From: Hypomesus transpacificus
Lineage: Eukaryota; Chordata; Actinopteri; Osmeriformes; Osmeridae
Assembly (NCBI RefSeq): GCF_021917145.1
Contig: NW_025813780.1
Coordinates: forward strand, 62,001-126,000
Length of the DNA stretch: 64,000 bases
Direction of reading: 5' to 3'
Below the pieces are notes generated by a model. The model was not told the DNA's origin and made no database searches. It worked only from the letters and a program-made list of their open reading frames with translations. A program made the translations under genes and the position numbers. Below, one piece after another: positions 22,036 through 59,347 of the stretch (its first letter is position 1; each line of letters opens with the position of its first letter).

Positions 22036-22576
22036 TCATATTGTTATACTATTCTCAATATTTGTAGGGTTCAAGTAGATGTAGGGCAGTTTCAGCTTTG
22101 AGTTCCTTATATTGATGAACTCGCTCAGGAAGGACAACTCGGTCTGCAGTTGCTTCTTCATCTTCTTGGGAGAAGCCTCATCAAAGTATTCATCTGGGTA
22201 TGTTCCAAGGGGAACCTGGAGGACAAGAAATGGTGTCTTGATGAAAATTATGGAATGGACAGAGATAAGTTTGAATTCACTCAATTATTATCATTGCTCC
22301 TATAAAAAACTATAGGCATCCTCACAAAGTCATCAAATTTCTTGCTGAGCAACCACACTGAGGCCATGTTGTTGACTGAGGTGCCAACATTTGGTAGGGT
22401 CTTCAAGATGGAGTCCATGCCAGACCTCCCTTTCGTGGTCGGAGGAGGGTTGTTCAGAAACAAGGGGTTGTTGGCAATCCAACTGGAGTAGTCAAACTAC
22501 TAGGCATAAAATAAAGAAAATTAAAAGAACAATGGAATGCATGTAATTTAGGTTATGGATAGGGAAATATCATGTG

Positions 22577-22619
<43 letters not shown>

Positions 22620-25600
22620 CTTATTGACTATTTGAATGTCACCTGTCCCATGTTAACAGCATTGTGTTGAGCAGAGACAAGGAAGAGGATCATTGTAATA
22701 AACTTGACCAGCTCGCCCACTGTATGAAACGATTCAGGGATTCCTGGAAAGACCAGAGCAGTCACTGTCACTGAAACATGTCACGTTCAACAATTCCTTC
22801 AGAGACATTTGCAAACTTTTAGGCTGAGTACCTGACTTGCTGTTTCCAAGAAAACCATACATGAAGATCTCTTTAATCCAGTCTTGGAGCTCCGAGTCCC
22901 TGGACACTTCACTGTCAGAGGGGTAGTAGTACTCCACCATCCCCTTGACAAAGCTATAAAACAAAACACAACACAGAGAATAGACCTTCAGAGCTCGGGT
23001 TCAGTTTGAAGTTAATCCAAAAACAGCTGAACAGTTTTGCGCTACCTGTTGATGACCTTCCACAGCTTCAGGCCGTCATCCCTGTAGTAGTAGTGGGGGA
23101 TGAACTGCATTCCTCGTGCAGTAATGTCCTCCGGCAGACAGAGGGAGCTGTAAGTTAAATCTGACAGTGACCTCTTCAAAAGTTCTTTCAGACCATTTCC
23201 ATCTATCAAACCCTGAAGAAACAAACACACAAGTCACAACAATAAACTGTTGTGGCTAACACAATAATCTGGATCAACCCTGATCTAGTTCTGTTGAACT
23301 CTCACTTTTCACACTGAGATATTAAGGGAAATGTAAACTTATGAATGGCAATGTACATTTGTCAGGGGTCCATCTGGACTGATTAGTCGTTTACGAGCAA
23401 GGACATTTATCTGCAGAGTGTAACGAAAGTGGGGAGTCAGCATCTGGAATGCAAATAAGAACAGTGGAGAGAAGAAAAGTATATACATTGTGTTACAAAA
23501 ATTCCACAAAGACAATTGTTACCGAAGTACTATGCTTTGGTAAAAGCCTATATTTTAAAATTCCATATCACCATTTACATGTTTTTAGCCATGAATCAAT
23601 GTGTACAACTGGACCCAAGTGTCCATATTGAAATGCACTATTTTACACAAAATGTACCTTGTAAATGGGGTGTATCACAGGAAAGTTCCGAAAGGTTGCC
23701 ATTGCAAAGACCTCTGCCAGCAGGTGGGTGTTCAGTAGATGGTGAGTAATCTGATAGTCATTGAAATCTGCACATCTCATATATAACTTGGCTAACAGCC
23801 AGTCATGCTCTGAGTCACTAGGCAGAAAGATGGGGCAATGCTCCGAAGGTACTTGTCCCAGCTGTGAGAAATGAAAATGGTCAAATAACAAAGAGGTGTA
23901 TGTCTATAATACAGGCTAACATCTTTTTGGCATTAATGTACCTGGATGGCAATGGGCAGCAATTTGTCCTCTGGGTTCTTGTAGAAAAGACAGAATCCTG
24001 GAGTCAGAGGAAGAGGCTCACCATTGACAACCCTGGTTGGCAAACCCTCTAGTTTCTTATAGTCACAAATGAATATGTTCCCTTCCTGTGGTCAAAACAA
24101 AATGTATTATGTTAACTGCACTGTTTCCATTTAGTCATTTAGCAGACGCTCTTATCCAGAGCCATTTACAGTAAGTACAGGAAAATTTCCCCCGAGGCAA
24201 GTAGGGTGAAGTGCCTTGCCCAAGGACACAATGTCATTTTGACGCGCCCGGGAATCGAACTGGTCGCCAGGAATCGAACTGGCGACTTTCAGATTACTAG
24301 CCCAATTCCCTAACCGCTCAGCCACCTGACTCTCTGACTGTTATGAAAGAAAACTCAGTTTGCATATCTCAAATCCACATTAACAATTTAAACTCAGACC
24401 TTGGTCTCTCTGGCTAGAGAGCTTCCAGACTCCAGGAAGGGCTGTACCATCTCGTCAGTGACAGGAACGTTGGGGGGAAGTTTTGAGCAGCATTGGATCA
24501 CATTGGGGTTGGTTCCATTAAGATACTGGGACCCAAAGAATTCATCATCTTTCCAATGGTCATAGACGTACTCTAGAAGGAACATTTTAATTGTCATTTA
24601 ATATATAAAATACATATTGGGTAAATTACAAAGAGGATTACAACAGACAATATGAAAGCCCTCTTTGAGATATATTGTATTCCTGCAACAAAAAAAGGCA
24701 TAAAAGCACAGTTTTCAAAAGAGCAAAGTACTGCTGTGCTGAGAATTTATTGGTTGGTTGCATAGTATTGTTTGAGGGATTTGTTCATCTACCTGCTATG
24801 GGTGTCCTCTTGTACCAGAAGACCTCCTTCATGTCATCTAAGGTTTTCCAGTGCTCAGTGGAGGATGCAAGACCCTTAAGGTTGAGCTCAGCCAAACTGG
24901 AGAAGGAGGTTGGACAACAGGAACGTAAAAAATAAAAATTGATTAAAACTCAGTGAATTCTGAAAGGTTATTTTGTACTTGACTGGAAATGTCAAATTTT
25001 ATGTGAGGGGTAGGATGTCAGGGAGTCACCTGGTTCACGTGACCAAGCCTAATGAGTCACCTGATAGCTAATTTCAATTAAATGCAGGCCTTTTGTTTGC
25101 TATGAGAGCGAGACAAACGCATAAAGCGGGTAAGGGTCACAGGCGTTCTTTTAAAAACAGGTTATGCATAGCTTAATCAGCAGTAGCCCATCCTTACCGG
25201 TGTTTGTGTTTTATTTTGAATGTTATAAAGGTAAATGTGTGTGCCTGCACTGCTCTGTATTGATTATGCACTTAACGTCTTTATAGTGCACCGTGCTAAA
25301 ACTACTCAGTCTATGACCCTGCACAGACGTACAGGTATTTTAGTTACATGAAGCATTGAACAGATAGCCTGTAAATTCAGTATCTTCGATGGGCAAGTAA
25401 CTAATGGGTAGTTTGCTACTTTTCAGGAGTCAGTAGCCACTGTTTTTCCCTACCTTATATTTAGTACGAAATTAGATATTTGAACTATTCCCTGTACCCG
25501 TTCAACTAGTGTAAACCAGCAGCTCAGGGTTTGGGTTATGCTCTGCTACAATGTGTGCCTTTTGATGTACGTGTATGAAACCACCTCCAAGTTGTGTTTT

Positions 25601-28140
25601 GCTTTTCACCGATTTTGTTTGGCGGGACCTACTCCTGTCCTTTTATGTATTTGCCGTGAGAGTGCCCTCTTTTGGGGTGATTTTACTATGATCATTTGAT
25701 CTTTGTTATTTTTTAGCAGTGATAATAGCAAAATTGCAGCTTTGGTGCAGCACTTTGTATTAGTGGCTTGTGTGAGCACTTTATAGGATTGTGCAATATT
25801 ATAAATAAAGTGCATTATTTTAGTAGCCACCTTCTCCCTCATTCATTTCCTTGAGTAGCCATTAGTGGGGAATACCATCCTAGCTACCACTGATTCTTAG
25901 CCAAGATTCAGTCGGGTGAAGGTTACTTATATAAAACATAACTGTTCAGCATTGAAACTTCATTGTATTTCCAATACTAATTTACACAGTATACAGTCAA
26001 GTATACTGTGTGTGTGTGTGTATATATAGCACTATATACACACACATACCAATACGTGTGTTGTGTATATTTCAAAACATGTCTTACTTAGTACCTCAAT
26101 CAATGTACAGTACTTGTCAACTTGAGGTGTTTTAACAGCAACTCACGCCACGGATTTGGTGTAGATGAAGTCCACAAGTTTAGAGAAGGAATATTGGACT
26201 TCAGAAGGGAGGGAAAAGGTGTCAGTGATGCTGTTAATGTAAGGCACACCCTTTGCATATTCAGCCCACCTGAATATTGAAACAAGAGAATGCAAATAGA
26301 CAGCAAAACATTCAATGGGTAATTCATCACAATGAATTAGGAAACTCGTTACAGTTTTCTAAAGAAGTAAATTGACTTCTTTTTTACAGTTTATTTAGTT
26401 TCAATGGTTTTCCTTTAGAGAGAATGTTGGGAGACTAACTAGTAGCTAGACAATGTAAAGTGGATACATTGCAGATGCAGCTAAATGTATATCAATAATA
26501 ATGTGCATTGGCCTGAGCACAGAGCAAGTACAATGACACAATCACTCACTTGAACAGTTGCTTATGAAGCTCCACCTCCTGTTTCCTGTGCTTAACCAGT
26601 AAAGGAAGCTCATCCTCAAAAACCTTGGTGGCTGAGAGATAGTGAAAAGACTTGCATCATTAACTTACGTTATTAAATAAATGCAATGTTTATTTACAAG
26701 ATTTCATGAATAACTGAAGGCTTATTTTGTTTAACAAATACAAATTCCAGATTTACCTTGCCCCCCCCTGAGCTCTACAACCTCCCCCCTGGAAATCCAT
26801 CTGTAGCAGGGGAACAGGATGACATCACCCTCCGGGGTCGTCACAACGATCTTGGAGCAGAACCACTCGTTTTCAGGCAAGTAAAGGAACTGTTCTTTTT
26901 CCAGCTTGACCAGGAGGGGGCGCCCCAGAGACGAGGTGCTGGTGACAGTGTAGCTGCTCGTCTGACATACAAGATGGACAATTATCATTGATTAATAACA
27001 TTTAAATGAATAATAATAATAAGTGAGCAGGATGCCATGTGTCTGAGAGGCTGTTACTTTCATGTCCCAATGCAAACATCTCCTTCTGACGGATACTGGA
27101 GTGGTAAGATCAAGACCCCACCCCTAGTTCCTCAGCTTGAAGCAAATGCCTCGATGGATTGGTAGTATTGCATTTCAGTTTGACTTTTTCTGGTGATTTT
27201 ATTCAATCAGCTCAAGTCCAAAAATCCACAATTGTTATAATACATCTTTGGCCAAATAGTGTTGACTTTGAAACGTACTGTGTACTCTTTGTACACTTTG
27301 CTTATGTCAAAGACACAGACATGATAAAGCCAGAAGTTCAACATGGTTCAGACAGTATCTTGGTTTAATAGCCTAGGTCTATGGGTAGGATATTGGAGTT
27401 TTGAAATATACCAATTGAAATATGGTTCCAGAAGAGGAAATGCTTGCAATGACTAGCAAACAGAGAATATGACTTATGAGCGGAGCAAGTTCGGGCATGG
27501 CACTTGGGCAGCGTGCGTCATATCACCCATTTAACTCGTTGCTCCCTGCCTCATGTCATGCATGCTGCAGTGAAGGCATGGAGCGCTTCTCCATGTACAT
27601 CCATTCCGCCAGTGTTAAAACAAATGTTCATGTATATGAATAAATGGTGAAATCAATCACGTGAGTGTCTTGACTGAACTACTTATAATAGGCTATTGCC
27701 TACAGTATTTATAGCTTAGGCCTACTTGGCAGAACACAGTTTGTAGGCTACATTCATTAACCTAGCCTGGTTTCCTGTTGCACACAGTATTTTCAAATAC
27801 ATTGTCAAGTTCATACAGCTTGAGACACTGGCCCTCATTTATCAATCTATCATAGTAACCAGCACAGATTAGTGTGCAGAAATGATCTCCTAACAGGGTT
27901 CACATGTGATTCACGAAACATTCTTATATCCCATCATCCACTGGCATGAACAAAATATTTGGATTTTGAATGGTTCATAGGTTTTTAACTTACCTGCCCA
28001 GTTTGGAAATCCAGACCATAGTTGTCCAGGTGTGTGCGGTTACTCTGCCCGTCTGTTCCAATCAGTGTGACATATATATAGTCAGATGTCTCAGACAGCA
28101 GCCACTCACCAGTGGTCACCTCTACTTTGTATTCGGCCAT
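22036..28140 (-). CDS. Lipoxygenase C, ALOX family
   Basis: Same predicted activity as B. Exons 1-14: 27994-28140, 26757-26961, 26550-26631, 26147-26269, 24793-24896, 24400-24572, 23942-24085, 23658-23861, 23357-23443, 23046-23212, 22832-22953, 22643-22743, 22326-22496, 22036-22215; sum 2010 bp, 669 residues plus stop, every junction GT-AG and in frame. PLAT residues 1-117; ligands His367/His372 (HHLLNTH), His546/Asn550 ([11 protein letters not shown]), Ile669 (ENSITI end). Ala410 suggests an S-type product by the Ala/Gly rule for animal lipoxygenases. Introns carry a SINE (intron 6), a ~1-kb insertion (intron 4) and a ~190-bp insertion (intron 1). Exons 1-3 are identical to D and E; exons 10-14 differ slightly (for example WKVIN and GMDSILK, against WKIIN and GMHSILK in D-F). 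Confidence 0.93.
22578..22618. repeat. (AT)n microsatellite
   Basis: An uninterrupted AT run in intron 12 of locus C. The equivalent site in D, E and F is shorter and broken by TGTG. Confidence 0.9.
24120..24340 (-). mobile_element. tRNA-Leu-like SINE in intron 6 of C
   Basis: On the minus strand there is an A-box-like GGCTGAGCGGTTA (24311-24323) and two B-box-like AGTTCGATTCC words (24251-24280, a small internal duplication). A tail contains GCGTCTGCTAAATGAC, the widespread fish SINE tail. It is absent at the same place in B, D and F. The head resembles tRNA-Leu but is embedded in a longer repeat, so it is not a functional tRNA gene. Confidence 0.75.
24985..25970. mobile_element. ~1-kb insertion in intron 4 of C, possible solo LTR
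   Basis: Absent from intron 4 of B, D and F, where the flanking sequence is nearly continuous. It contains AATAAA (25804-25809) followed by a GTAGCC-repeating stretch, LTR-like in layout, but I cannot define TG...CA ends or a target duplication. It holds no coding frame I recognise. The same insertion is in E. Confidence 0.5.
27479..27680. mobile_element. ~190-bp insertion in intron 1 of C (family also at 61226)
   Basis: Locus B has continuous sequence here, while C inserts ATGAGCGGAGCAAGTTCGGG to about GTGTCTTGACTGAACTA. A possible ACTTAT duplication lies on both sides. The words TTGCTCCCTGCCTCATGTCA and GTCTTGACTGAACT recur at 61226-61665, so this is a dispersed repeat. Copies in D (37626-37827) and E (48858-49059) come with the block duplication. 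Confidence 0.6.
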
Positions 28141-28342
28141 GACAATTTGGTATGAAAATCACTAGAACAGATGAGGAAAAAACCTTACTGTACAAGTTCA
28201 TGGATTACAGTGTATTAATTACAGCCTGTGTCTTTTAAAGACCCTGCATCCTAATACATGAAAACAGAACCTACCGTTAACACCTCTTCAGATTTTTGCT
28301 TGCTTTTTCTCTTGTCTAGAGATCAGGTTTGTTTTGGAAGCT

Positions 28343-28350
28343 TTTATATA
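28343..28350 (-). promoter_or_regulatory. TATA box of lipoxygenase C
   Basis: TATATAAA 203 bp upstream of the ATG on the minus strand, as in the other active loci. Confidence 0.6.
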
Positions 28351-28959
28351 TTTGTACAACTCCTCCCCTTTAAGAAAAAGAATTCGGTTGTGGAAAAGGT
28401 CAGATCCAGCAGGCTCAATAAACCCCTAAGGTTAGAGATGATCTCTTACATCTTGCCTTTATTGTTATGTTGGTTTATACAAAGAATGAAGTTTGGAATG
28501 AAGTTTGGCTCCGAGCCTACCTAGGATGGCCTGAAGTTTTCTCAGAAAAAGATATATCTCTTCTGCAGGCTCATTCTTTAATCTATACTATAATTCCAGA
28601 ACTCTCTGTTTGTCTTTTTGTTTGTGTGTGTGCACATTTTATAGTGGTAACTTTGTTGACAGTTGTGAATTAATATTGCACAATTTTGTGAGATTACTGT
28701 AAGGTTTTATCTTTGTTTGGGGTAAACCAGAGATGTAAACGATTTAGCCTATGTCATGTAATACCTACTCAGTAGGCCACCTGTTTTTGGACACAAACTT
28801 TTGTTGTTGTTGCTAAAACACAGACTTGACATTCAATGTAAAAGTTAACTCTGAATTAGCCCGGACAGAGGCCTGTGTGTGAACCCTCTAAAATGGTCCC
28901 TCATTTCAATTTGAATAAGGTAATGTAATGCATCTTCTATAGATGTTAAGCTATAGATG

Positions 28960-30146
28960 AGTATCAAGGTGGCATAATTTGTATGCTGATGACACACAAC
29001 TTGATCTGCCTTTGAAACCCAATGATACTGTTTAACCTCTTTTTATACTGCATTGCGGATATAAAAAAGTGGCTTTCAAGTAATTTTCTCCAACTAAACT
29101 AGGAAAAGACCGAAGTGATCATTTTGGTCCTGCTGGCTCGAGAGCTAGTCTTCGTAAAATGATTAGTAATTTTTTTCTCTAGTGTCAACTCACATGTTAG
29201 GAACCTTGCAGGGGCGTGTCCAGACATTTTTAATAGGGGTGGCACCAGGGGTGGCCCGCCTCTGACTGGGCATATAGCCAATCATATATTGGGGTGGCCA
29301 ATCAGATTTCAGGGGTGGCCCGTGCCACCCTAGGCCACTCCCTAAACACGCCCCTGGAACCTTGGGTTCATTATTGACTCGGACCTTGGGTTGGTCAAGC
29401 AGATTAACTCTGTGGTGAAAAATCGTTTCTATCAGTTACGACTGATTTCCAAGGTCAAATCTGCTTTGTCTTTTAAAGACCTTGAAACTGTCATTCATGC
29501 TTTTATCACCTCACGTTTAGATGATTGTAATTCCCTCTATGATGGTCTCCCCAAGTCCTCAATTGACCGTCTTCAGATGGTGCAGAATGCTGCTGCCAGA
29601 ATTTTATCGTCCACTACAAAGTTTGACCACATTACCCCAGTCTTGGCCTCTTTGCACTGGCTTCCTGTCCAGTTTAGATTACATTTTAAAATGTTATTGT
29701 TTGTTTTTAAAGCTCTTAATGGACAGGCCCCTTCATATATCTCGGACCTCTTAAAATTACACACACCCATTAGGTCACTGAGGTCTGCGGACAAGCTACT
29801 TTTATACACTCCCCGATCACGCTGTATACACACAAGTGATAGGGCCTTTTCAGTTGTTGGTCCTAAACTGTGGATTCAGCTTCCCCTGTCTATTAGGCAG
29901 ACTCCATCTTTGTCTATTTTTAAATCCAAGACCCACCTTTATGTTCTGGCGTTTCCCACCACTTGAGTTGTGCTGTTGCTTGTTTTGCTGTTGTTGACTG
30001 TTTTGTATTTTGTTTTTACTTTGTATATTATAGTGCTTTTTAAATATGTATTTGGATTACTGTTTTTGTGCATTTGTTTGGCACCTTGGTCAGCCTTGCT
30101 GTGTTGTGAGTGTGCTTTATAAATACAATTTACTTACTTACATACA
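28960..30146 (+). mobile_element. L2/CR1-like LINE 3' fragment, copy 1
   Basis: Degenerate end of a reverse-transcriptase ORF. The catalytic YADD motif is readable at 28982-28993, then DIKKWLSSNFLQLN followed by a stop. After a MITE interruption there is a 191-codon open stretch (29391-29966) with SRLDDCNSLYDGLP, QNAAARIL and ITPVLASLHWLPV, typical of this LINE group. It ends GTGCTTTATAAATACAATTT plus TTAC repeats, an L2-like tail. It is 5'-truncated and carries stops, so it is inactive. Confidence 0.85.
29209..29356. mobile_element. hAT-like MITE inside the LINE, copy 1
   Basis: 148 bp with 11-bp terminal inverted repeats (CAGGGGCGTGT...ACACGCCCCTG) and an 8-bp target duplication GAACCTTG at 29201-29208 and 29357-29364, diagnostic of hAT-type insertion. 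Removing it mentally rejoins the LINE reading frame (…MLGTLGFIIDSDLGL…), confirming insertion into the LINE. Confidence 0.9.
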
Positions 30147-30779
30147 TTATACTAAACCCAACAAAACTGAATTCACAATTTTCAGCAATTCAGACTATGG
30201 TGGAAGAGAATACTGACATTTGATATTGCTTGCTTCATTGAAAGGTTGTTGGCAGCTCAGTGTATACCATTTTGTTTCAGCTAAATTCATCCTTGACCAC
30301 CTAAACCACCTACCCCCACCCCTCCTCCATGGGAACAGTTATGTTGCCACAGTCTGGCAACAGGACAGTTCATGATCATGTTGAAAACTGAACAGTTGAG
30401 TTTTCCCTGGAAGATGTAATAAAACAAATGAACTCATAAAACAAAAGCCTCTTCGCTCAATTGGATAGACCTACAACCAATCATAGCAACGAAATCTGTT
30501 GTTTGTTAATTAACTACTATGAATTAGTTTGTTAACTAATTCCACCCATTGCTCTTTCGTGACGTTGTTGATTACGTTGCTGTCCATCATCTGTCCATCG
30601 TCGTATAAAGCCCACCCTGGCAATTTCATTGGTCCGCCCAGCTCCTGGTTTAATATAGTTTGTCCCCAATACGAGCCCCTCCAGACCCAACTTCCCGACC
30701 AAATTTTTGGTGTGGGCGGGGCTAAGTTGGGCTGGAAGCCAGGCTAGTAATGAGCTACTAGCTCAGCCCTTTTCGAAGG

Positions 30780-31500
30780 CAAGGATATCTTTTGTAAAGC
30801 CAACAAGCCCCAACTAGCGCAGGCATTCACTGATTTCTCAAGCAAGACATCTAAAAAAACTGTCCTGGATTCTATCCCACCAACTGAGCAATATACCCTT
30901 GACGGTGGCTCCCTGGTTCACCGCTTGGCATGGAAAAAGAGGGCCATATGCAGACTTTACCATACACCATTATGGTAAAGCAACAGTTGTTTTTGAAGTT
31001 TTATCAAAGTTCCTTCCATCAAAGACAATACGCATCAGAGACGTGGTGAAACACTCACCCCATTGTTAACTTCAATGCAGAGACTGATTTTATGGGAAGA
31101 AAGGATGATTTCCTTTCCAGATCTTGCAACAAACAAGAACTTCTCAATCTTATGACCGAGGAGCTGGAGAAGGGCTGCACTGTTAGTAATGCATCAGGTG
31201 ATGCTGACGTGGACATTGTCAAAGCTCCAGTTAAGGCCTAAGAACATCAGCCCACAACCTTGATAGGGGAGGATACAGACATACTCATTCTTTTCGTCTA
31301 CTATGCTGGGACGAACAATAGAGGCCTCTAGAGTCCAAAACTACTGAAGTGTACAACATTAGTGAGATGAAACGCCTTCTGGGTAGTGACTTGTGTTCCC
31401 AGTTGCTGTTTATTCACGCCTTCACAGGATGTGATACAACCCGCATTTTTTGTGTTGGCAAACAGACAGCGTTCCAGAAACTTGTGAATGGTGAATCAAC
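30780..31500 (+). pseudogene. Broken multi-copy ORF with HAFTGCDTT motif, copy 1
   Basis: Conceptual translation in shifting frames gives LDGGSLVHRLAWKK, then GEDTDILILFVYYAG, a stop, a frameshift, and LCSQLLFIHAFTGCDTTRIF. I recognise this order from an abundant, poorly characterised family in animal genomes that usually travels with mobile elements; its function is unknown to me. It is clearly broken. The open frame continuing to 31882 beyond the motif shows no resemblance. Confidence 0.55.
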
Positions 31501-32009
31501 TATCCTGTCCTGTCCTGTCCAATGTGTTTCTGCTCCCACATCAAGCAAGGAATGTCATAGAGGATCCTGGGGCCAAGGCAATGGCAGTGATGTTTGGCGG
31601 AAAGAGTACCTATTCACTTGTGTTACATCCCTCGCCGTGCTTGTATGCGTGTTCTGCATTGTTGTGTGCTTGTCTTCCCTTCTGTTTCCCCTCATTCTCG
31701 TTGCTGCAACCAGGTGCCCGTCAGCGATTGGCTCCCGCCTCCATTCCCCGTCACCGCTGCACCTACGCTCATCAACCTCCGTCCAGGATTGGCTGTCGTC
31801 ACCACTCCCCCGTCGCCAACACCCTGCACTCGTCCAATCGTCTGTCTGTCCACATTTAAAACCTGTTCTGTTCGGTCTCTAGCCCTGTGTAAGGAGTGTG
31901 TGCCATGTATGTTTTCTTAGTATAGGGACATCTTTTGGTTGCGCAGATAGAACCCTTTTGTTACTTACCTTTCTTTTTTTCCCCTTTTTTTTTGTGTGAA
32001 ATAATTCAG

Positions 32010-32860
32010 TTCAGTTTTGGCTTGTTCCGGTGATTTTATTTTAGTCAAAATCCACAATTGCTATGAATAGAATATATATCTTTGGACAAATTGTGTTGAT
32101 TTTGAAACAAAATGGGAAAAGTAGTACTCTGCACTTTTTGATTATGTCTAAAACATTGACATGATGACGCCAGGAGTACAGTGAGACAATCTACAGCGCA
32201 AGACCTGACAAGCCAGAAGTTCAACATGGTGTAGACAGTATCTTGGTTTAATAGCCTAGGTCTATGGGTAGGATGTTGGAGTTTTGATAACTGTAATACG
32301 GTTCCACAAGAGGAAATGCTTGGAATTACTAGCAAACTGTAAAGCAGATTTTCTGTGTACATGTGCAGCCTGAGTCTCTGTAAGGTCAAGATGTCCTGCA
32401 GCGAGGCCCCCTCTGAACAGAATATGGCACAAAGCCCAGACAGTGGGGAGACAGTAAGGAAAATCATGTACATGTACAACTAGGGCTATGTGATTAACGA
32501 CCACTTCACCTGCTGAATGTTCTAGTGCATCAGCGCACTGACCACTGAAGACCTGTTACAAAGTAATTCTGTGCATTCTATATCTGTGCTGTCCAACTCA
32601 TGTATTGAAGCATGGCTGAGAGACAGAGTTTTCACTCATGCCATCAGTTTGTCTTGAACTGATTGTTTGAATCAATAAAACATATCAGAAAAAACCTTAC
32701 TGTACAAGTTCATGGATTCCAGTGTATTAATTTCAGTCTTAGTCTTTTAAACAGCCTGTATCCCAATACATGCAAACAGAACCTACCGTTAACACCTGTT
32801 CAGATTTAGCTTACTTTTGCTTTTTCTCGACTAAAGAGCTTTATATATTTGTACAACTCC
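32010..32860 (-). pseudogene. Exonless remnant of a lipoxygenase gene, copy 1
   Basis: 32010-32345 aligns with intron 1 of locus B (same words around TCAGTTTTGGCTTGTTCCGG and TTGTGTTGATTTTGAAACAA). 32685-32860 aligns with the 5' flank of the lipoxygenase genes, including an orphan TATATAAA box at 32840-32847. Exon 1, expected between them, is missing and replaced by unrelated sequence. A C-tract (about 32862-32878) then abuts the 3' flank of the next gene. This is the scar of another array member. Confidence 0.75.
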
Positions 32861-38287: not shown

Positions 38288-38489
38288 GACAATTTGGTAT
38301 GAAAATCACTAGAACAGATGAGGAAAAAACCTTACTGTACAAGTTCATGGATTACAGTGTATTAATTACAGCCTGTGTCTTTTAAAGACCCTGCATCCTA
38401 ATACATGAAAACAGAACCTACCGTTAACACCTCTTCAGATTTTTGCTTGCTTTTTCTCTTGTCTAGAGATCAGGTTTGTTTTGGAAGCT

Positions 38490-38497
38490 TTTATATA
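38490..38497 (-). promoter_or_regulatory. TATA box of lipoxygenase D
   Basis: TATATAAA 203 bp upstream of the ATG, in a promoter region identical to that of C and E. Confidence 0.6.
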
Positions 38498-46400: not shown

Positions 46401-49400
46401 GGAGTCACCTGGTTCACGTGACCAAGCCTAATGAGTCACCTGATAGCTAATTTCAATTAAATGCAGGCCTTTTGTTTGCTATGAGAGCGAGACAAACGCA
46501 TAAAGCGGGTAAGGGTCACAGGCGTTCTTTTAAAAACAGGTTATGCATAGCTTAATCAGCAGTAGCCCATCCTTACCGGTGTTTGTGTTTTATTTTGAAT
46601 GTTATAAAGGTAAATGTGTGTGCCTGCACTGCTCTGTATTGATTATGCACTTAACGTCTTTATAGTGCACCGTGCTAAAACTACTCAGTCTATGACCCTG
46701 CACAGACGTACAGGTATTTTAGTTACATGAAGCATTGAACAGATAGCCTGTAAATTCAGTATCTTCGATGGGCAAGTAACTAATGGGTAGTTTGCTACTT
46801 TTCAGGAGTCAGTAGCCACTGTTTTTCCCTACCTTATATTTAGTACGAAATTAGATATTTGAACTATTCCCTGTACCCGTTCAACTAGTGTAAACCAGCA
46901 GCTCAGGGTTTGGGTTATGCTCTGCTACAATGTGTGCCTTTTGATGTACGTGTATGAAACCACCTCCAAGTTGTGTTTTGCTTTTCACCGATTTTGTTTG
47001 GCGGGACCTACTCCTGTCCTTTTATGTATTTGCCGTGAGAGTGCCCTCTTTTGGGGTGATTTTACTATGATCATTTGATCTTTGTTATTTTTTAGCAGTG
47101 ATAATAGCAAAATTGCAGCTTTGGTGCAGCACTTTGTATTAGTGGCTTGTGTGAGCACTTTATAGGATTGTGCAATATTATAAATAAAGTGCATTATTTT
47201 AGTAGCCACCTTCTCCCTCATTCATTTCCTTGAGTAGCCATTAGTGGGGAATACCATCCTAGCTACCACTGATTCTTAGCCAAGATTCAGTCGGGTGAAG
47301 GTTACTTATATAAAACATAACTGTTCAGCATTGAAACTTCATTGTATTTCCAATACTAATTTACACAGTATACAGTCAAGTATACTGTGTGTGTGTGTGT
47401 ATATATAGCACTATATACACACACATACCAATACGTGTGTTGTGTATATTTCAAAACATGTCTTACTTAGTACCTCAATCAATGTACAGTACTTGTCAAC
47501 TTGAGGTGTTTTAACAGCAACTCACGCCACGGATTTGGTGTAGATGAAGTCCACAAGTTTAGAGAAGGAATATTGGACTTCAGAAGGGAGGGAAAAGGTG
47601 TCAGTGATGCTGTTAATGTAAGGCACACCCTTTGCATATTCAGCCCACCTGAATATTGAAACAAGAGAATGCAAATAGACAGCAAAACATTCAATGGGTA
47701 ATTCATCACAATGAATTAGGAAACTCGTTACAGTTTTCTAAAGAAGTAAATTGACTTCTTTTTTACAGTTTATTTAGTTTCAATGGTTTTCCTTTAGAGA
47801 GAATGTTGGGAGACTAACTAGTAGCTAGACAATGTAAAGTGGATACATTGCAGATGCAGCTAAATGTATATCAATAATAATGTGCATTGGCCTGAGCACA
47901 GAGCAAGTACAATGACACAATCACTCACTTGAACAGTTGCTTATGAAGCTCCACCTCCTGTTTCCTGTGCTTAACCAGTAAAGGAAGCTCATCCTCAAAA
48001 ACCTTGGTGGCTGAGAGATAGTGAAAAGACTTGCATCATTAACTTACGTTATTAAATAAATGCAATGTTTATTTACAAGATTTCATGAATAACTGAAGGC
48101 TTATTTTGTTTAACAAATACAAATTCCAGATTTACCTTGCCCCCCCCTGAGCTCTACAACCTCCCCCCTGGAAATCCATCTGTAGCAGGGGAACAGGATG
48201 ACATCACCCTCCGGGGTCGTCACAACGATCTTGGAGCAGAACCACTCGTTTTCAGGCAAGTAAAGGAACTGTTCTTTTTCCAGCTTGACCAGGAGGGGGC
48301 GCCCCAGAGACGAGGTGCTGGTGACAGTGTAGCTGCTCGTCTGACATACAAGATGGACAATTATCATTGATTAATAACATTTAAATGAATAATAATAATA
48401 AGTGAGCAGGATGCCATGTGTCTGAGAGGCTGTTACTTTCATGTCCCAATGCAAACATCTCCTTCTGACGGATACTGGAGTGGTAAGATCAAGACCCCAC
48501 CCCTAGTTCCTCAGCTTGAAGCAAATGCCTCGATGGATTGGTAGTATTGCATTTCAGTTTGACTTTTTCTGGTGATTTTATTCAATCAGCTCAAGTCCAA
48601 AAATCCACAATTGTTATAATACATCTTTGGCCAAATAGTGTTGACTTTGAAACGTACTGTGTACTCTTTGTACACTTTGCTTATGTCAAAGACACAGACA
48701 TGATAAAGCCAGAAGTTCAACATGGTTCAGACAGTATCTTGGTTTAATAGCCTAGGTCTATGGGTAGGATATTGGAGTTTTGAAATATACCAATTGAAAT
48801 ATGGTTCCAGAAGAGGAAATGCTTGCAATGACTAGCAAACAGAGAATATGACTTATGAGCGGAGCAAGTTCGGGCATGGCACTTGGGCAGCGTGCGTCAT
48901 ATCACCCATTTAACTCGTTGCTCCCTGCCTCATGTCATGCATGCTGCAGTGAAGGCATGGAGCGCTTCTCCATGTACATCCATTCCGCCAGTGTTAAAAC
49001 AAATGTTCATGTATATGAATAAATGGTGAAATCAATCACGTGAGTGTCTTGACTGAACTACTTATAATAGGCTATTGCCTACAGTATTTATAGCTTAGGC
49101 CTACTTGGCAGAACACAGTTTGTAGGCTACATTCATTAACCTAGCCTGGTTTCCTGTTGCACACAGTATTTTCAAATACATTGTCAAGTTCATACAGCTT
49201 GAGACACTGGCCCTCATTTATCAATCTATCATAGTAACCAGCACAGATTAGTGTGCAGAAATGATCTCCTAACAGGGTTCACATGTGATTCACGAAACAT
49301 TCTTATATCCCATCATCCACTGGCATGAACAAAATATTTGGATTTTGAATGGTTCATAGGTTTTTAACTTACCTGCCCAGTTTGGAAATCCAGACCATAG

Positions 49401-49519
49401 TTGTCCAGGTGTGTGCGGTTACTCTGCCCGTCTGTTCCAATCAGTGTGACATATATATAGTCAGATGTCTCAGACAGCAGCCACTCACCAGTGGTCACCT
49501 CTACTTTGTATTCGGCCAT
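43427..49519 (-). CDS. Lipoxygenase E, mosaic ALOX gene
   Basis: Exons 1-14: 49373-49519, 48136-48340, 47929-48010, 47526-47648, 46172-46275, 45779-45951, 45321-45464, 45037-45240, 44736-44822, 44425-44591, 44211-44332, 44022-44122, 43717-43887, 43427-43606; 669 residues, in frame, all iron ligands present. It is a mosaic. Exons 4-6 and introns 4 and 6 (with SINE and 1-kb insertion) match C at +21379, while exons 9-14 match D at +10147 (WKIIN, GMHSILK). The switch falls in a tract at 44870-45475 where C and D are identical. This gives a third protein combination, differing from C and D at only a few positions. Confidence 0.92.
45499..45719 (-). mobile_element. tRNA-Leu-like SINE in intron 6 of E
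   Basis: Same SINE and insertion point as in C, at offset +21379. Confidence 0.75.
46364..47349. mobile_element. ~1-kb insertion in intron 4 of E
   Basis: Same insertion as in intron 4 of C, at offset +21379. Together with the SINE it marks the type-1 middle segment. Confidence 0.5.
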
Positions 49520-49721
49520 GACAATTTGGTATGAAAATCACTAGAACAGATGAGGAAAAAACCTTACTGTACAAGTTCATGGATTACAGTGTATTAATTA
49601 CAGCCTGTGTCTTTTAAAGACCCTGCATCCTAATACATGAAAACAGAACCTACCGTTAACACCTCTTCAGATTTTTGCTTGCTTTTTCTCTTGTCTAGAG
49701 ATCAGGTTTGTTTTGGAAGCT

Positions 49722-49729
49722 TTTATATA
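49722..49729 (-). promoter_or_regulatory. TATA box of lipoxygenase E
   Basis: TATATAAA 203 bp upstream of the ATG; promoter identical to that of C and D. Confidence 0.6.
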
Positions 49730-50338
49730 TTTGTACAACTCCTCCCCTTTAAGAAAAAGAATTCGGTTGTGGAAAAGGTCAGATCCAGCAGGCTCAATAA
49801 ACCCCTAAGGTTAGAGATGATCTCTTACATCTTGCCTTTATTGTTATGTTGGTTTATACAAAGAATGAAGTTTGGAATGAAGTTTGGCTCCGAGCCTACC
49901 TAGGATGGCCTGAAGTTTTCTCAGAAAAAGATATATCTCTTCTGCAGGCTCATTCTTTAATCTATACTATAATTCCAGAACTCTCTGTTTGTCTTTTTGT
50001 TTGTGTGTGTGCACATTTTATAGTGGTAACTTTGTTGACAGTTGTGAATTAATATTGCACAATTTTGTGAGATTACTGTAAGGTTTTATCTTTGTTTGGG
50101 GTAAACCAGAGATGTAAACGATTTAGCCTATGTCATGTAATACCTACTCAGTAGGCCACCTGTTTTTGGACACAAACTTTTGTTGTTGTTGCTAAAACAC
50201 AGACTTGACATTCAATGTAAAAGTTAACTCTGAATTAGCCCGGACAGAGGCCTGTGTGTGAACCCTCTAAAATGGTCCCTCATTTCAATTTGAATAAGGT
50301 AATGTAATGCATCTTCTATAGATGTTAAGCTATAGATG

Positions 50339-51525
50339 AGTATCAAGGTGGCATAATTTGTATGCTGATGACACACAACTTGATCTGCCTTTGAAACCCA
50401 ATGATACTGTTTAACCTCTTTTTATACTGCATTGCGGATATAAAAAAGTGGCTTTCAAGTAATTTTCTCCAACTAAACTAGGAAAAGACCGAAGTGATCA
50501 TTTTGGTCCTGCTGGCTCGAGAGCTAGTCTTCGTAAAATGATTAGTAATTTTTTTCTCTAGTGTCAACTCACATGTTAGGAACCTTGCAGGGGCGTGTCC
50601 AGACATTTTTAATAGGGGTGGCACCAGGGATGGCCCGCCTCTGACTGGGCATATAGCCAATCATATATTGGGGTGGCCAATCAGATTTCAGGGGTGGCCC
50701 GTGCCACCCTAGGCCACTCCCTAAACACGCCCCTGGAACCTTGGGTTCATTATTGACTCGGACCTTGGGTTGGTCAAGCAGATTAACTCTGTGGTGAAAA
50801 ATCGTTTCTATCAGTTACGACTGATTTCCAAGGTCAAATCTGCTTTGTCTTTTAAAGACCTTGAAACTGTCATTCATGCTTTTATCACCTCACGTTTAGA
50901 TGATTGTAATTCCCTCTATGATGGTCTCCCCAAGTCCTCAATTGACCGTCTTCAGATGGTGCAGAATGCTGCTGCCAGAATTTTATCGTCCACTACAAAG
51001 TTTGACCACATTACCCCAGTCTTGGCCTCTTTGCACTGGCTTCCTGTCCAGTTTAGATTACATTTTAAAATGTTATTGTTTGTTTTTAAAGCTCTTAATG
51101 GACAGGCCCCTTCATATATCTCGGACCTCTTAAAATTACACACACCCATTAGGTCACTGAGGTCTGCGGACAAGCTACTTTTATACACTCCCCGATCACG
51201 CTGTATACACACAAGTGATAGGGCCTTTTCAGTTGTTGGTCCTAAACTGTGGATTCAGCTTCCCCTGTCTATTAGGCAGACTCCATCTTTGTCTATTTTT
51301 AAATCCAAGACCCACCTTTATGTTCTGGCGTTTCCCACCACTTGAGTTGTGCTGTTGCTTGTTTTGCTGTTGTTGACTGTTTTGTATTTTGTTTTTACTT
51401 TGTATATTATAGTGCTTTTTAAATATGTATTTGGATTACTGTTTTTGTGCATTTGTTTGGCACCTTGGTCAGCCTTGCTGTGTTGTGAGTGTGCTTTATA
51501 AATACAATTTACTTACTTACATACA
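50339..51525 (+). mobile_element. L2/CR1-like LINE 3' fragment, copy 3
   Basis: Block-X copy of the 28960 LINE fragment. Its open stretch is 50770-51345. Confidence 0.85.
50588..50735. mobile_element. hAT-like MITE, copy 3
   Basis: Same 148-bp element as copies 1 and 2. It carries the G-to-A difference at 50630. Confidence 0.9.
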
Positions 51526-52158
51526 TTATACTAAACCCAACAAAACTGAATTCACAATTTTCAGCAATTCAGACTATGGTGGAAGAGAATACTGACATTT
51601 GATATTGCTTGCTTCATTGAAAGGTTGTTGGCAGCTCAGTGTATACCATTTTGTTTCAGCTAAATTCATCCTTGACCACCTAAACCACCTACCCCCACCC
51701 CTCCTCCATGGGAACAGTTATGTTGCCACAGTCTGGCAACAGGACAGTTCATGATCATGTTGAAAACTGAACAGTTGAGTTTTCCCTGGAAGATGTAATA
51801 AAACAAATGAACTCATAAAACAAAAGCCTCTTCGCTCAATTGGATAGACCTACAACCAATCATAGCAACGAAATCTGTTGTTTGTTAATTAACTACTATG
51901 AATTAGTTTGTTAACTAATTCCACCCATTGCTCTTTCGTGACGTTGTTGATTACGTTGCTGTCCATCATCTGTCCATCGTCGTATAAAGCCCACCCTGGC
52001 AATTTCATTGGTCCGCCCAGCTCCTGGTTTAATATAGTTTGTCCCCAATACGAGCCCCTCCAGACCCAACTTCCCGACCAAATTTTTGGTGTGGGCGGGG
52101 CTAAGTTGGGCTGGAAGCCAGGCTAGTAATGAGCTACTAGCTCAGCCCTTTTCGAAGG

Positions 52159-52879
52159 CAAGGATATCTTTTGTAAAGCCAACAAGCCCCAACTAGCGCA
52201 GGCATTCACTGATTTCTCAAGCAAGACATCTAAAAAAACTGTCCTGGATTCTATCCCACCAACTGAGCAATATACCCTTGACGGTGGCTCCCTGGTTCAC
52301 CGCTTGGCATGGAAAAAGAGGGCCATATGCAGACTTTACCATACACCATTATGGTAAAGCAACAGTTGTTTTTGAAGTTTTATCAAAGTTCCTTCCATCA
52401 AAGACAATACGCATCAGAGACGTGGTGAAACACTCACCCCATTGTTAACTTCAATGCAGAGACTGATTTTATGGGAAGAAAGGATGATTTCCTTTCCAGA
52501 TCTTGCAACAAACAAGAACTTCTCAATCTTATGACCGAGGAGCTGGAGAAGGGCTGCACTGTTAGTAATGCATCAGGTGATGCTGACGTGGACATTGTCA
52601 AAGCTCCAGTTAAGGCCTAAGAACATCAGCCCACAACCTTGATAGGGGAGGATACAGACATACTCATTCTTTTCGTCTACTATGCTGGGACGAACAATAG
52701 AGGCCTCTAGAGTCCAAAACTACTGAAGTGTACAACATTAGTGAGATGAAACGCCTTCTGGGTAGTGACTTGTGTTCCCAGTTGCTGTTTATTCACGCCT
52801 TCACAGGATGTGATACAACCCGCATTTTTTGTGTTGGCAAACAGACAGCGTTCCAGAAACTTGTGAATGGTGAATCAAC
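52159..52879 (+). pseudogene. Broken HAFTGCDTT ORF, copy 3
   Basis: Block-X copy of the element at 30780 with the same defects. Confidence 0.5.
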
Positions 52880-53388
52880 TATCCTGTCCTGTCCTGTCCA
52901 ATGTGTTTCTGCTCCCACATCAAGCAAGGAATGTCATAGAGGATCCTGGGGCCAAGGCAATGGCAGTGATGTTTGGCGGAAAGAGTACCTATTCACTTGT
53001 GTTACATCCCTCGCCGTGCTTGTATGCGTGTTCTGCATTGTTGTGTGCTTGTCTTCCCTTCTGTTTCCCCTCATTCTCGTTGCTGCAACCAGGTGCCCGT
53101 CAGCGATTGGCTCCCGCCTCCATTCCCCGTCACCGCTGCACCTACGCTCATCAACCTCCGTCCAGGATTGGCTGTCGTCACCACTCCCCCGTCGCCAACA
53201 CCCTGCACTCGTCCAATCGTCTGTCTGTCCACATTTAAAACCTGTTCTGTTCGGTCTCTAGCCCTGTGTAAGGAGTGTGTGCCATGTATGTTTTCTTAGT
53301 ATAGGGACATCTTTTGGTTGCGCAGATAGAACCCTTTTGTTACTTACCTTTCTTTTTTTCCCCTTTTTTTTTGTGTGAAATAATTCAG

Positions 53389-54239
53389 TTCAGTTTTGGC
53401 TTGTTCCGGTGATTTTATTTTAGTCAAAATCCACAATTGCTATGAATAGAATATATATGTTTGGACAAATTGTGTTGATTTTGAAACAAAATGGGAAAAG
53501 TAGTACTCTGCACTTTTTGATTATGTCTAAAACATTGACATGATGACGCCAGGAGTACAGTGAGACAATCTACAGCGCAAGACCTGACAAGCCAGAAGTT
53601 CAACATGGTGTAGACAGTATCTTGGTTTAATAGCCTAGGTCTATGGGTAGGATGTTGGAGTTTTGATAACTGTAATACGGTTCCACAAGAGGAAATGCTT
53701 GGAATTACTAGCAAACTGTAAAGCAGATTTTCTGTGTACATGTGCAGCCTGAGTCTCTGTAAGGTCAAGATGTCCTGCAGCGAGGCCCCCTCTGAACAGA
53801 ATATGGCACAAAGCCCAGACAGTGGGGAGACAGTAAGGAAAATCATGTACATGTACAACTAGGGCTATGTGATTAACGACCACTTCACCTGCTGAATGTT
53901 CTAGTGCATCAGCGCACTGACCACTGAAGACCTGTTACAAAGTAATTCTGTGCATTCTATATCTGTGCTGTCCAACTCATGTATTGAAGCATGGCTGAGA
54001 GACAGAGTTTTCACTCATGCCATCAGTTTGTCTTGAACTGATTGTTTGAATCAATAAAACATATCAGAAAAAACCTTACTGTACAAGTTCATGGATTCCA
54101 GTGTATTAATTTCAGTCTTAGTCTTTTAAACAGCCTGTATCCCAATACATGCAAACAGAACCTACCGTTAACACCTGTTCAGATTTAGCTTACTTTTGCT
54201 TTTTCTCGACTAAAGAGCTTTATATATTTGTACAACTCC
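53389..54239 (-). pseudogene. Exonless lipoxygenase remnant, copy 3
   Basis: Block-X copy of the remnant at 32010. The orphan TATATAAA is at 54219-54226. Confidence 0.75.
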
Positions 54240-54658
54240 CCCCCCCCCCCGCCCCCCTCCGATCAAGGTCCTAATATTTCCTTGTATGTCTGAGTCCAGA
54301 ATCCAATCTATCTTTTTATTTGCAAAGCAAGGTGAATACAGCATCAACAACTTTTCACAGTAAGGACAAACTACCACTACCCCTACTCTAACACAAATCA
54401 ACTCTCATTTTAATAACCCCCTCTCTTGCAACACTATTGCATGAAATTTTACAATCTCCTGGCACACATTACTTCATATTCCAGAAGCCTTTCAACTTCA
54501 AGTGTAATGCAAAACCTTCCTACTTCACATTTGTCATTATGCTATCACAGTGTCAGGCTCTACACCCTTTCAAAGTTTACTTAGACGTGCAGAACATAAA
54601 TTGCCTCTAGGGGGTGTTACAAACACCAGTTCCAAAACATTTATTTCTACAAAATCAC

Positions 54659-57600
54659 TCATATTGTTATACTATTCTCAATATTTGTAGGGTTCAAGTA
54701 GATGTATGGCAGTTTCAGCTTTGAGTTCCTTGTATTGATGAACTCGCTCAGGAAGGACAACTCGGTCTGCAGTTGCTTCTTCATCTTCTTGGGAGAAGCC
54801 TCATCAAAGTATTCATCTGGGTATGTTCCAAGGGGAACCTGGAGGACAAGAAATGGTGTCTTGATGAAAATTATGGAATGGACAGAGATAAGTTTGAATT
54901 CACTCAATTATTATCATTGCTCCTATAAAAAACTATAGGCATCCTCACAAAGTCATCAAATTTCTTGCTGAGCAACCACACTGAGGCCATGTTGTTGACT
55001 GAGGTGCCAACATTTGGTAGGGTCTTCAAGATAGAGTGCATACCAGACCTCCCTTTCGTGGTCGGAGGAGGGTTGTTCAGAAACAAGGGGTTGTTGGCAA
55101 TCCAACTGGAGTAGTCAAACTACTAGGCATAAAATATAAAAAATGAAAAGAACAATGGAATGCATGTAATTTAGGTTACATATAGGGAAATAGCATGTGA
55201 TAAATATATATGTGTATATATATATATGAGCTTATTGACTATTTGAATGTCACCTGTCCCATGTTAACAGCATTATGTTGAGCAGAGACTAGGAAGATGA
55301 TCATTGTAATGAACTTGACCAGCTCGCCCACTGTATGAAACGATTCAGGGATTCCTGGAAAGACCAGAGCAGTCACTGTCTCTGAAACATGTCACATTCA
55401 ACAATTCCTTCAGAGACATTTGCAAACTTTAAGGCTGAGTACCTGACTTGCTGTTTCCAAGAAAACCATACATGAAGATCTCTTTAATCCAGTCTTGGAG
55501 CTCCGAGTCCCTGGACACCTCACTGTCAGAGGGGTAGTAGTACTCCACCATCCCCTTGACAAAGCTATAAAACAAAACACAACACAGAGAATAGACCTTC
55601 AGAGCTCGGGTTCAGTTTGAAGTTAATCCAAAAACAGCTGAACAGCTTTGCGCTACCTGTTGATGATCTTCCACAGCTTCAGGCCGTCATCCCTGTAGTA
55701 ATAGTGGGGGATGAACTGCATTCCTCGTGCAGTAATGTCCTCCGGCAGACAGAGGGAGCTGTAAGTTAAATCTGACAGTGACCTCTTCAAAAGTTCTTTC
55801 AGACCATTTCCATCTATCAAACCCTGAAGAAACAAACACACAAGTCACAACAATAAACTGTTGTGGCTAACACAATAATCTGGATCAACCCTGATCTAGT
55901 TCTGTTGAACTCTCACTTTTCACACTGAGATATTAAGGGAAATGTAAACTTATGAATGGCAATGTACATTTGTCAGGGGTCCATCTGGACTGATTAGTCG
56001 TTTACGAGCAAGGACATTTATCTGCAGAGTGTAACGAAAGTGGGGAGTCAGCATCTGGAATGCAAATAAGAACAGTGGAGAGAAGAAAAGTGAATACATT
56101 GTGTTACAAAAATTCCACAAAGACAATTGTTACCGAAGTACTATGCTTTGGTAAAAGCCTATATTTTAAAATTCCATATCACCATTTACATGTTTTTAGC
56201 CATGAATCAATGTGTACAACTGGACCCAAGTGTCCATATTGAAATGCACTATTTTACACAAAATGTACCTTGTAAATGGGGTGTATCACAGGAAAGTTCC
56301 GAAAGGTTGCCATTGCAAAGACCTCTGCCAGCAGGTGGGTGTTCAGTAGATGGTGAGTAATCTGATAGTCATTGAAATCTGCACATCTCATATATAACTT
56401 GGCTAACAGCCAGTCATGCTCTGAGTCACTAGGCAGAAAGATGGGGCAATGCTCCGAAGGTACTTGTCCCAGCTGTGAGAAATGAAAATGGTCAAATAAC
56501 AAAGAGGTGTATGTCTATAATACAGGCTAACATCTTTTTGGCATTAATGTACCTGGATGGCAATGGGCAGCAATTTGTCCTCTGGGTTCTTGTAGAAAAG
56601 ACAGAATCCTGGAGTCAGAGGAAGAGGCTCACCATTGACAACCCTGGTTGGCAAACCCTCTAGTTTCTTATAGTCACAAATGAATATGTTCCCTTCCTGT
56701 GTGGAAAACAAAACATATCATCTTAACTGCACTGTTATGGAAGACAGGAAAACTCAGTTTGCATATCTCAGATCCACATTAACAATTTAAACTCAGACCT
56801 TGGTCTCTCTGGCTAGAGAGCTCCCAGACTCCAGGAAGGGCTGTACCATCTCGTCAGTGACAGGAAAGTTGGGGGGAAGTTTGGAGTAGCATTGGATCAC
56901 ATTGGGGTTGGTTCCATTAAGATACTGGGACCCAAAGAATTCATCATCTTTCCAATGGTCATAGATGTACTCTGGAAGGAGCATTTTGATTGTCATTTTA
57001 TACATACAAGACATATTGGGTAAATTACAAAGAGGATTACAACAGACAATATGAAAGCCCTCTTTGAGATATATTGTATTCCTGCAAAAGAAGCACAAAA
57101 AGCACAAAAGAGCATTTGTTCAAGAGGATTTGTTTATCTACCTGCTATGGGTGTCCTCTTGTACCAGAAGACCTTCTTCATGTCCTCCAAGGATTTCCAG
57201 TGCTCAGTGGAGGATGCAAGACCCTTAAGGTTGAGCTCAGCCAAACTGGAGAGGAAATTGGACAACAGGAAAACGGTAAAAGGTTAAAACAAATCAATTA
57301 AAACTTAGCAAGGTTATTTTGTAGCTGTGTCTTAAAATTTTTTTTTACACAAACTACAAGTATACTGTGTGTGTGTGTATGTATATATATGTAATGGATA
57401 ATGCCCGACGAGGTGTAAAATATCACCTGATAATGGACTCCGCGTAAGCAACCGTCCTCCGCAGGTGATATTGTACACCTCGTCGGGCATTATCCCTTAC
57501 ATATAGCACTACATACACGCACACGCATACCAGTACGTGTGTTGTGTATCAACAACATGTTTTACTCAGTACCTCAATCATTAACATACAATGCACAGTA

Positions 57601-59347
57601 CTTGTCAATTTGGAGTGAATAAACAGCAACTCACGCCATGGATTTGGTGTAGATGAAGTCCCCAAGTTTAGAGAAGGAAAATCGGACTTCAGAAGGGAGG
57701 GAAAAGGTGTCAGTGATGCTGTTAATGTAAGGCACCCCCTTTGCATATTCAGCCCACCTGAATATTGAAAAAAGAGAATGCAAACACAGGTTCTGAAGCA
57801 ACACAGCAAAACATTTCAATTGGTAATTCTTCAATGAATTAGGAAACTAGTTACTTTAGCCAGTTTTCTAAAGAAGTAAATTGACTTTTTTTAACTTTAT
57901 TCATTTATAGTTTCAAAGGGTTTCCTTTGGAGAGGAAATGTTGGGAGGGTAACTAGTAGCTAGACAATATAAAGTGAATACATTGCAGATGCAGCTAATT
58001 GTATCTGCATGTCAATAATAATGTGCATTGGCCTAAGCACAGAGCAAGTACAAAGACACAATCACTCACTTGAACAGTTGCTTATGAAGCTCCACCTCCT
58101 GTTTCCTGTGCTTAACCAGTAAAGGAAGCTCATCCTCAAAAACCTTGGTGGCTGAGAGATAGTGAAAAGACTTAGGCTACATCATTTACTAACGTTATTA
58201 AATAAATGCAATGTTTATTTACAAGATTTCATGAATAACTGAAGGCTTATTTTGTTTAACAAATACAAATTCCAGATTTACCTTGCCCTCCCCTGAGCTC
58301 TACAACCTCCCCCCTGGAAATCCATCTGTAGCAGGGGAACAGGATGACATCACCCTCCGGGGTCGTCACGACGATCTTGGAGCAGAACCACTCGTTTTCA
58401 GGCAAGTAAAGGAACTGTTCTTTTTCCAGCTTGACCAGGAGGGGGCGCCCCAGAGACGAGGTGCTGGTGACAGTGTAGCTGCTCGTCTGACATACAAGAT
58501 GGACAATTATCATTGAATAAGAATATTTAAATGAATAATAATAATAAGTGAGCAGGATGCCATGTGTCTGAGAGGCTGTTACTTTCATGTCCCAATGCAA
58601 ACATCTCCTTCTGACGGATATTGGAGTGGTAAGATCAAGACCCCACCCCTAGTTCCTCAGCTTGAAGCAAATGCTTAAATGCTTCGGTCATATTGCATTT
58701 CAGTGTTGTCACCCAGCTTGTTCTCGATGGATTGGCAGTATTGCATTTCAGTTTTGGCTTGTTCTAGTGATTCTATTTTATCAGCTCAAGTCAAAATATC
58801 CACCATCTTTATAAATATAATATTTTTAGCTAAATTGTGTTGATTTTTAAACAAAATGGGAACATTAGTACTCTTTGCACGTTTTGCTATGTCAAAGACA
58901 GACATGATGAAGCCAGGAGCACAGTGAGACAATCTACAGCGCAATAACACAAAGTATATAGGCTATATTCATTAACCTAGCCTGGTTTCTTTTTGCACAC
59001 AGTATTGTCAAATACATTTGTAAGTTCATACAACTTGAGACACTGGCCTTCATTTATCAATCTAACATAGTAACCAGCACAGATTAGTATGCAGAAAATG
59101 ATCTACTAAAAGGGTTCACATGTGATTCAAGAAACATTCTTATATCTCATCACATGAAAAAAACTATGGATTTTGAACGGTTCATAGGTTTTTAACTCAC
59201 CTGCCCAGTTTGGAAATCTAGACCATAGTTGTCCAGGTTTGTGCGGCTACTCTGCCCGTCTGTTCCAATCAGTGTGACATATATATAGTCAGATGTCTCA
59301 GACAGCGCCCTATCGCCTGTAGTCACTTCTACTTTGTACTCTGCCAT
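54659..59347 (-). CDS. Lipoxygenase F, ALOX family
   Basis: Exons 1-14: 59201-59347, 58282-58486, 58070-58151, 57635-57757, 57142-57245, 56799-56971, 56553-56696, 56269-56472, 55968-56054, 55657-55823, 55443-55564, 55254-55354, 54949-55119, 54659-54838; 669 residues, in frame, ligands and Ala410 intact. Exons 2-14 encode the same residues as D by eye. Exon 1 differs ([10 protein letters not shown] and SSRTNLD, against [10 protein letters not shown] and SNRTHLD), placing the variation in the PLAT domain. The 5' flank is unduplicated and diverged from C-E, so F is the array's upstream end. Intron 1 is shorter than in C-E and lacks the 190-bp insertion. Confidence 0.92.
57391..57500. mobile_element. 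Hairpin MITE in intron 4 of F
   Basis: Same 110-bp inverted-repeat element and position as in D. Only the flanking AT/GT microsatellite differs in length. Confidence 0.85.

Follow-up and report, generated by a model that had tools for sequence, protein, structure and literature searches.

In a 64,000-nucleotide stretch of the Hypomesus transpacificus genome (assembly GCF_021917145.1, contig NW_025813780.1, positions 62,001 to 126,000), henceforth called the window, four near-identical lipoxygenase genes were found in tandem on the minus strand, arranged as a mosaic in which the outer two genes appear to be parental and the two between them hybrids. The array is probably a real and very young expansion of vertebrate 14-exon lipoxygenases, produced by non-allelic homologous recombination from an ancestor with two genes. 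Gene C (22036..28140), with exons 4-6 of type 1 and private exons 10-14, is read as the C-like parent, and gene F (54659..59347), with exons 4-6 of type 2 and a private exon 1 and upstream region, as the F-like parent. The hybrid D (33280..38287) joins F-type exons 4-14 to C-type exons 1-3 and a C-type upstream region, and the hybrid E (43427..49519) joins F-type exons 7-14 to C-type exons 1-6, again with a C-type upstream region. The original prediction, made from the letters alone, had placed the array at 22036-59347; on the minus strand, the stop codon of C ends at the former position and the ATG of F begins at the latter.

The window was compared with itself by recording exact-match blocks and the shifts between them, after which the copies were compared position by position. 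This self-comparison, proposed as a check in the original prediction, recovered the blocks reported there. A block of 8788 base pairs (bp), here called X, is present in three copies, with alternating middle segments containing exons 4-6 in between. The shifts between exact-match blocks are 10147, 11232 and 21379 bp, i.e. the predicted super-period of 21379 bp made up of the two shorter steps. X1 (26535..35322) holds the C upstream region and exons 1-3, a spacer and exons 14-7 of D; X2 (36682..45469) holds the corresponding parts of D and E, and X3 (47914..56701) those of E and F. X1 and X2 match exactly over all 8788 bp at the shift of 10147. Within X, the matches at shifts 11232 and 21379 are interrupted at two sites only, and X3 accordingly differs from both other copies at 2 of 8788 sites (G, G and A in X1, X2 and X3 at 29251/39398/50630, and C, C and G at 32080/42227/53459). 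The type-1 middle segment is identical in C (24091..26534) and E (45470..47913), and together with adjoining sequence the identity covers 3052 bp (C 23483-26534, E 44862-47913; no differences). The type-2 segments of D (35323..36681) and F (56702..58054) differ by 3 mismatches and 1 insertion or deletion over 1353 aligned bp. Two of the mismatches are a moved boundary between an A-run and a T-run, and the insertion or deletion lies inside a TG/TA microsatellite, which leaves one ordinary substitution. The assignment of type 1 to C and E and of type 2 to D and F was thereby confirmed, and with kilobases at 100% identity chance is not an issue for the repeated blocks. Each copy of X also contains a plus-strand open frame of 206 amino acids (29346-29966, 39493-40113 and 50725-51345), which we take to resemble the end of a long interspersed nuclear element (LINE) reverse transcriptase; a Pfam scan of the first of these copies gave no match.

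X had originally been described as a shared building block from which the genes are assembled. It is, however, no independent unit, consisting as it does of a C-type promoter and exons 1-3, the spacer, and F-type exons 14-7, and it repeats because the hybrid genes repeat it. Its borders are found 15 bp beyond exon 3, in intron 3, and 5 bp beyond exon 7, in intron 6. Since these are homologous sites inside gene bodies, the edges of X are the ends of paralogue identity, and a transposon or other mobile unit was rejected on the same grounds. Across the proteins of C, D, E and F, 19 of 669 residues vary. In exon 1, five of these set F apart from the other three; in exons 4-6, ten separate C and E from D and F; and in exons 10-14, four set C apart. 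Exons 7-9 are identical in all four genes. The predicted exon combinations hold for the proteins, E combining exons 1-6 of C with exons 7-14 of D/F, and F differing from D in exon 1 only (5 residues). At the DNA level, F and D already part within intron 2, immediately past 58173, and exon 2 has two synonymous differences. Over the 700 bp preceding exon 1, C, D and E show no differences (0/700), whereas F differs from C at 143 of 632 upstream positions and at 13 of 147 positions in exon 1. One upstream region, presumably the promoter, is thus common to C, D and E, with another in F, and the former three genes would be transcribed from identical promoters. Upstream of F, a C-rich minisatellite whose units are 33-56 bp long was seen at 60054-60375. 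Further, the segments 21359-21734, past the 3' end of C, and 60746-61114, upstream of F, align over 387 bp with 80% identity, which may reflect a shared repeat or an old duplication edge.

Both hybrids change from one parental type to the other within stretches of perfect identity. The interval in D is 36682..36800, 119 bp around exon 3 in which C, D, E and F agree fully with one another and also with gene B (13443..18200, minus strand), an older paralogue that is an intact 14-exon lipoxygenase of 669 amino acids, from ATG to TGA, and is patchily like C and D/F. To the left of this interval the sequence follows F, and to the right C. The corresponding interval in E is 44862..45469, 608 bp over exons 7-8 that all four genes of the array share without a difference, with the sequence following D/F leftward and C rightward. 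The two junctions are at homologous positions, and the outer ends of the array are single-copy, the private 3' end of C and the private 5' end of F occurring once each, as in hybrid-gene arrays made by non-allelic homologous recombination.

We propose an ancestor with two minus-strand genes, C-like to the left and F-like to the right (C3'-t1-X-t2-F5', t1 and t2 being the middle segments), which would have misaligned twice. A crossover in the 119-bp stretch at exon 3 would have joined an F-type 3' part (exons 14-4) to a C-type 5' part, yielding D, and one in the 608-bp stretch at exons 7-8 would have joined an F-type 3' part (exons 14-7) to a C-type 5' part, yielding E. Per event, the chromosome would gain one set of C-type exons 1-3 together with their promoter, a further spacer and another catalytic C-terminus of F-type, and X would repeat because each crossover adds precisely these parts. 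When the products of such an ancestor were enumerated, with X and the 3' and 5' sites as permitted crossover points, the observed array was absent from the one-step products, and a single 21.4-kb duplication was consequently rejected as a complete account. Five final crosses reach the array; two of these (D first and E first) need two events in all and three need three, making two the minimum. The recent unequal crossing-over or gene conversion that had been predicted fits well, in that two crossover intervals could be placed and a simple model needs no more than two events. With D first, a single recent duplication would have produced X1 and X2, and X3 would have been contributed by the other parental chromosome; the identity of X1 and X2, with X3 different, weakly favors this order.

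The upper 95% bounds on divergence are 0.034% for X1 and X2 (0/8788) and 0.082% for X1 and X3 (2 differences). At 5e-9 to 1e-8 substitutions per generation, rates that are assumed here without a source, these bounds correspond to at most about 34,000-17,000 and 82,000-41,000 generations, respectively. Such ages would fall within ordinary polymorphism time, for which reason the locus would be expected to vary in copy number at present, and individuals may differ in the number of genes they carry. An active copy-number locus with altered oxylipin dosage is plausible.

Copies of X that are 99.98-100% identical across 8.8 kb could also arise if there were fewer true copies and the assembler had joined alleles or switched paths in identical stretches, and false duplications, according to the accessible part of a study of older assemblies, made up 4 to 16% of the sequence and inflated gene families (PMC9516828). 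We regard such an artefact as unlikely in this case. Among the marks of false duplication described there are a halved read depth and, where both copies of a pair share a scaffold, gaps between them, whereas the window is without any N; moreover, the main source of false duplications is relatively divergent haplotypes, whereas the copies in this array are near identical (PMC9516828). By our own reasoning, unmerged overlapping contigs would create neither the junction from type 2 to X in D nor that from X to type 1 in E. The D junction has 119 bp of identity between more diverged flanks, a distance that one long read easily spans, and the 608-bp stretch at the E junction makes a weaker argument. 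Taken together, the lack of gaps, the near-identical copies and the two in-frame hybrid junctions at homologous sites favor a real array.

Gene conversion has also acted on these genes. In the alignment of the C and F gene bodies with their flanks, mismatches occupy 41 of 2007 coding positions and 479 of 3470 noncoding positions, and they come in patches. Runs of identity were tested with 2000 permutations, stratified by coding and noncoding sequence and with gap columns ignored. The C-F runs of 608, 390 and 300 bp were longer than in all permutations, from which we conclude that conversion took place; the next four runs, including that of 119 bp, did not exceed them. Two B-C runs, of 277 and 248 bp, likewise exceeded all 2000 permutations, and no B-F run was significant (longest 164 bp, p=0.06). 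Conversion-like tracts of this kind (each 0/2000) would also be expected in an older tandem array of four genes that was later homogenised by conversion, i.e. by concerted evolution. To bring three copies of the 8788-bp X, spacer included, to 0-2 differences would nevertheless take very long or very many tracts, where a fresh crossover gives the result directly, and the B-F pair lacks significant runs. We hence hold the homogenised older array to be quite improbable, and crossing-over between two parental genes to be the better account of the hybrids.

Some observations weigh against this two-event history, or against its details. The array is known from one assembled sequence, and near-zero divergence is expected from some assembly errors as well. 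The order with D first rests on two substitutions. At the D junction, the 119 bp of C-F identity are no longer than might be expected between these two genes (p=0.91); the stretch locates the D crossover but is by itself no evidence of exchange. The permutations, in turn, treat the substitution rate as uniform inside each of the two classes, coding and noncoding. A tract of 300 bp is identical in C (22110-22409) and in D, E and F (33354-33653, 43501-43800 and 54733-55032) with more diverged flanks; this conversion-like tract needs an extra event, making the full history richer than two events. Finally, B is itself a patchwork, near C in intron 3 (3/280 differences, vs. 25/278 to F) and near D/F in intron 6 (4/102, vs. 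31/141 to C), and nearer to D/F also in intron 4 and slightly in intron 5. It would seem, then, that B to F have exchanged sequence on occasions other than the last two events.

The gene models were made by a custom spliced protein-to-genome alignment, with our own draft of C as template and a scoring that favors GT-AG; start and stop codons were not required by the script, and the models of B to F, having a common template, are not mutually independent. All five have 14 exons of the same lengths, 2007 coding bases followed by TGA, and 669 amino acids without an internal stop, and each has 13 GT donors and 13 AG acceptors in its 13 introns (65/65 GT-AG overall). D, the one of these five models scanned whole in Pfam, contains a PLAT domain at residues 4-107 (PF01477, 4.3e-21) and a Lipoxygenase domain at 200-652 (PF00305, 2.2e-64). 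Iron ligands were found in all five proteins, namely H367 in HLLNTHLL, H546 in SAQHNA and the C-terminal Ile (SITI), and the Asn ligand in HNA(V/L)N is visible in the translations as well. A phmmer search of the draft C protein against solved structures gave, over approximately full length, 594 bits for ALOX15B, 552 for ALOX5, 464 for ALOX12 and 434 for ALOX15; ALOX15B is the best match among these structures as judged by bit score, rather than by tree or synteny. An Ala, A410 in INVLAR, occupies the putative Coffa position, as assigned by alignment, in all five genes. By the Gly-vs-Ala rule, Ala at this position would predict S-chirality, a rule only partly valid for fish enzymes, and putative fish ALOX15 genes are likewise given 14 exons in the accessible text of the same paper (PMC10531496).

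Exons 4-6, which distinguish the two middle types, begin with a 123-bp exon corresponding to exon 4 of human ALOX5. That exon covers W144-A184, within which lies helix alpha2 with its 'FY cork' of F177 and Y181, a proposed lid, and products of the polymerase chain reaction from human 5-lipoxygenase with and without it measure 445 and 322 bp (PMC5113960, available part), a gap equal to the exon length in our models. Types 1 and 2 differ at residue 177 (V/G), two residues before F179; the ALOX5 Phe aligned with F179 is, by our own count, F177 of the cork. The alternation might be kept by selection, the hybrids being functionally different enzymes with different active-site lids, and in line with this 10 of 133 codons in exons 4-6 carry amino-acid changes between C and F, vs. 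9 of 536 elsewhere (Fisher p=0.0013). The ratio of nonsynonymous to synonymous changes, 10:4 in exons 4-6 and 9:17 elsewhere, is borderline (p=0.046). The segment was, however, chosen after being seen, and the identity of exons 3 and 7-9 between C and F makes a higher density of changes in exons 4-6 expected also without selection. When compared with exons 10-14 alone the difference in ratio is not significant (p=0.11), and the nonsynonymous rate does not exceed the synonymous one (dN/dS 0.0325/0.0487). Positive selection on these exons was for these reasons not accepted as established, and we find maintenance of the alternation by selection very doubtful. A swap of exons 4-6 could still change activity. 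We would give only slim chances to a living copy-number locus in which a lid cassette of two types is reassorted between a fixed half with promoter and PLAT domain and a fixed catalytic half, yielding varied product spectra or regulation within one species.

Outside the mosaic, gene A (8157..12142, minus strand) is a diverged and decayed lipoxygenase copy, whose reading frame is interrupted by stops in exons 10 and 14 and which has an Asn at the position of the first His of HxxxxH in C; it is probably a pseudogene. A large plus-strand open frame at 4369-6909, with TRAF-like zinc finger and F-box domains, presumably of the FBXO30/FBXO40 type, is a possible synteny anchor. At 62957-63820 (minus strand) there is an open frame of 287 amino acids which we take to resemble the C-terminal part of a gypsy-type retrotransposon polyprotein, and in which a Pfam scan found no match. 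An Rfam scan of the window yielded no family at gathering score.

Among the matches listed in a search of the literature on fish lipoxygenase tandem arrays, most subscription papers lying outside it, no such hybrid array appeared in titles or abstract openings. If real, the array represents intragenic unequal crossover nearly caught in the act, with both parents, both hybrid types and the 119- and 608-bp intervals on one chromosome, and it would offer a clean vertebrate case for studying copy-number variation and the effect of swapping lid-bearing exons in a lipoxygenase. Zebrafish, too, has several related lipoxygenase genes, zfALOX1 to zfALOX4b, of which four are ALOX5-like; the accessible part of the paper mentions neither hybrids nor a mosaic array of near-identical copies (PMC9787790). 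With ALOX15B and ALOX5 the present genes share a full-length sequence match (594 and 552 bits), the PLAT and catalytic domains, the iron ligands and the C-terminal Ile; the authors who described putative fish ALOX15 proteins, for their part, were unable to match these to any one human isoform (PMC10531496, in its available text). Recombination-driven arrays with hybrid genes are an already known process, of which this lipoxygenase array is a further case. The red and green opsins of catarrhine primates form hybrids by unequal crossover and are variable in copy number. The two arrays are alike in their near-identical, head-to-tail paralogues and in their in-frame hybrids arising through intragenic unequal crossover, although copy number is known to vary in the opsins and is only expected to do so here. 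Compared with the red/green opsin duplication, as discussed for catarrhines (PMC3449122, available part), the present array differs in that its genes are lipoxygenases and in that middle segments of two types alternate along it.

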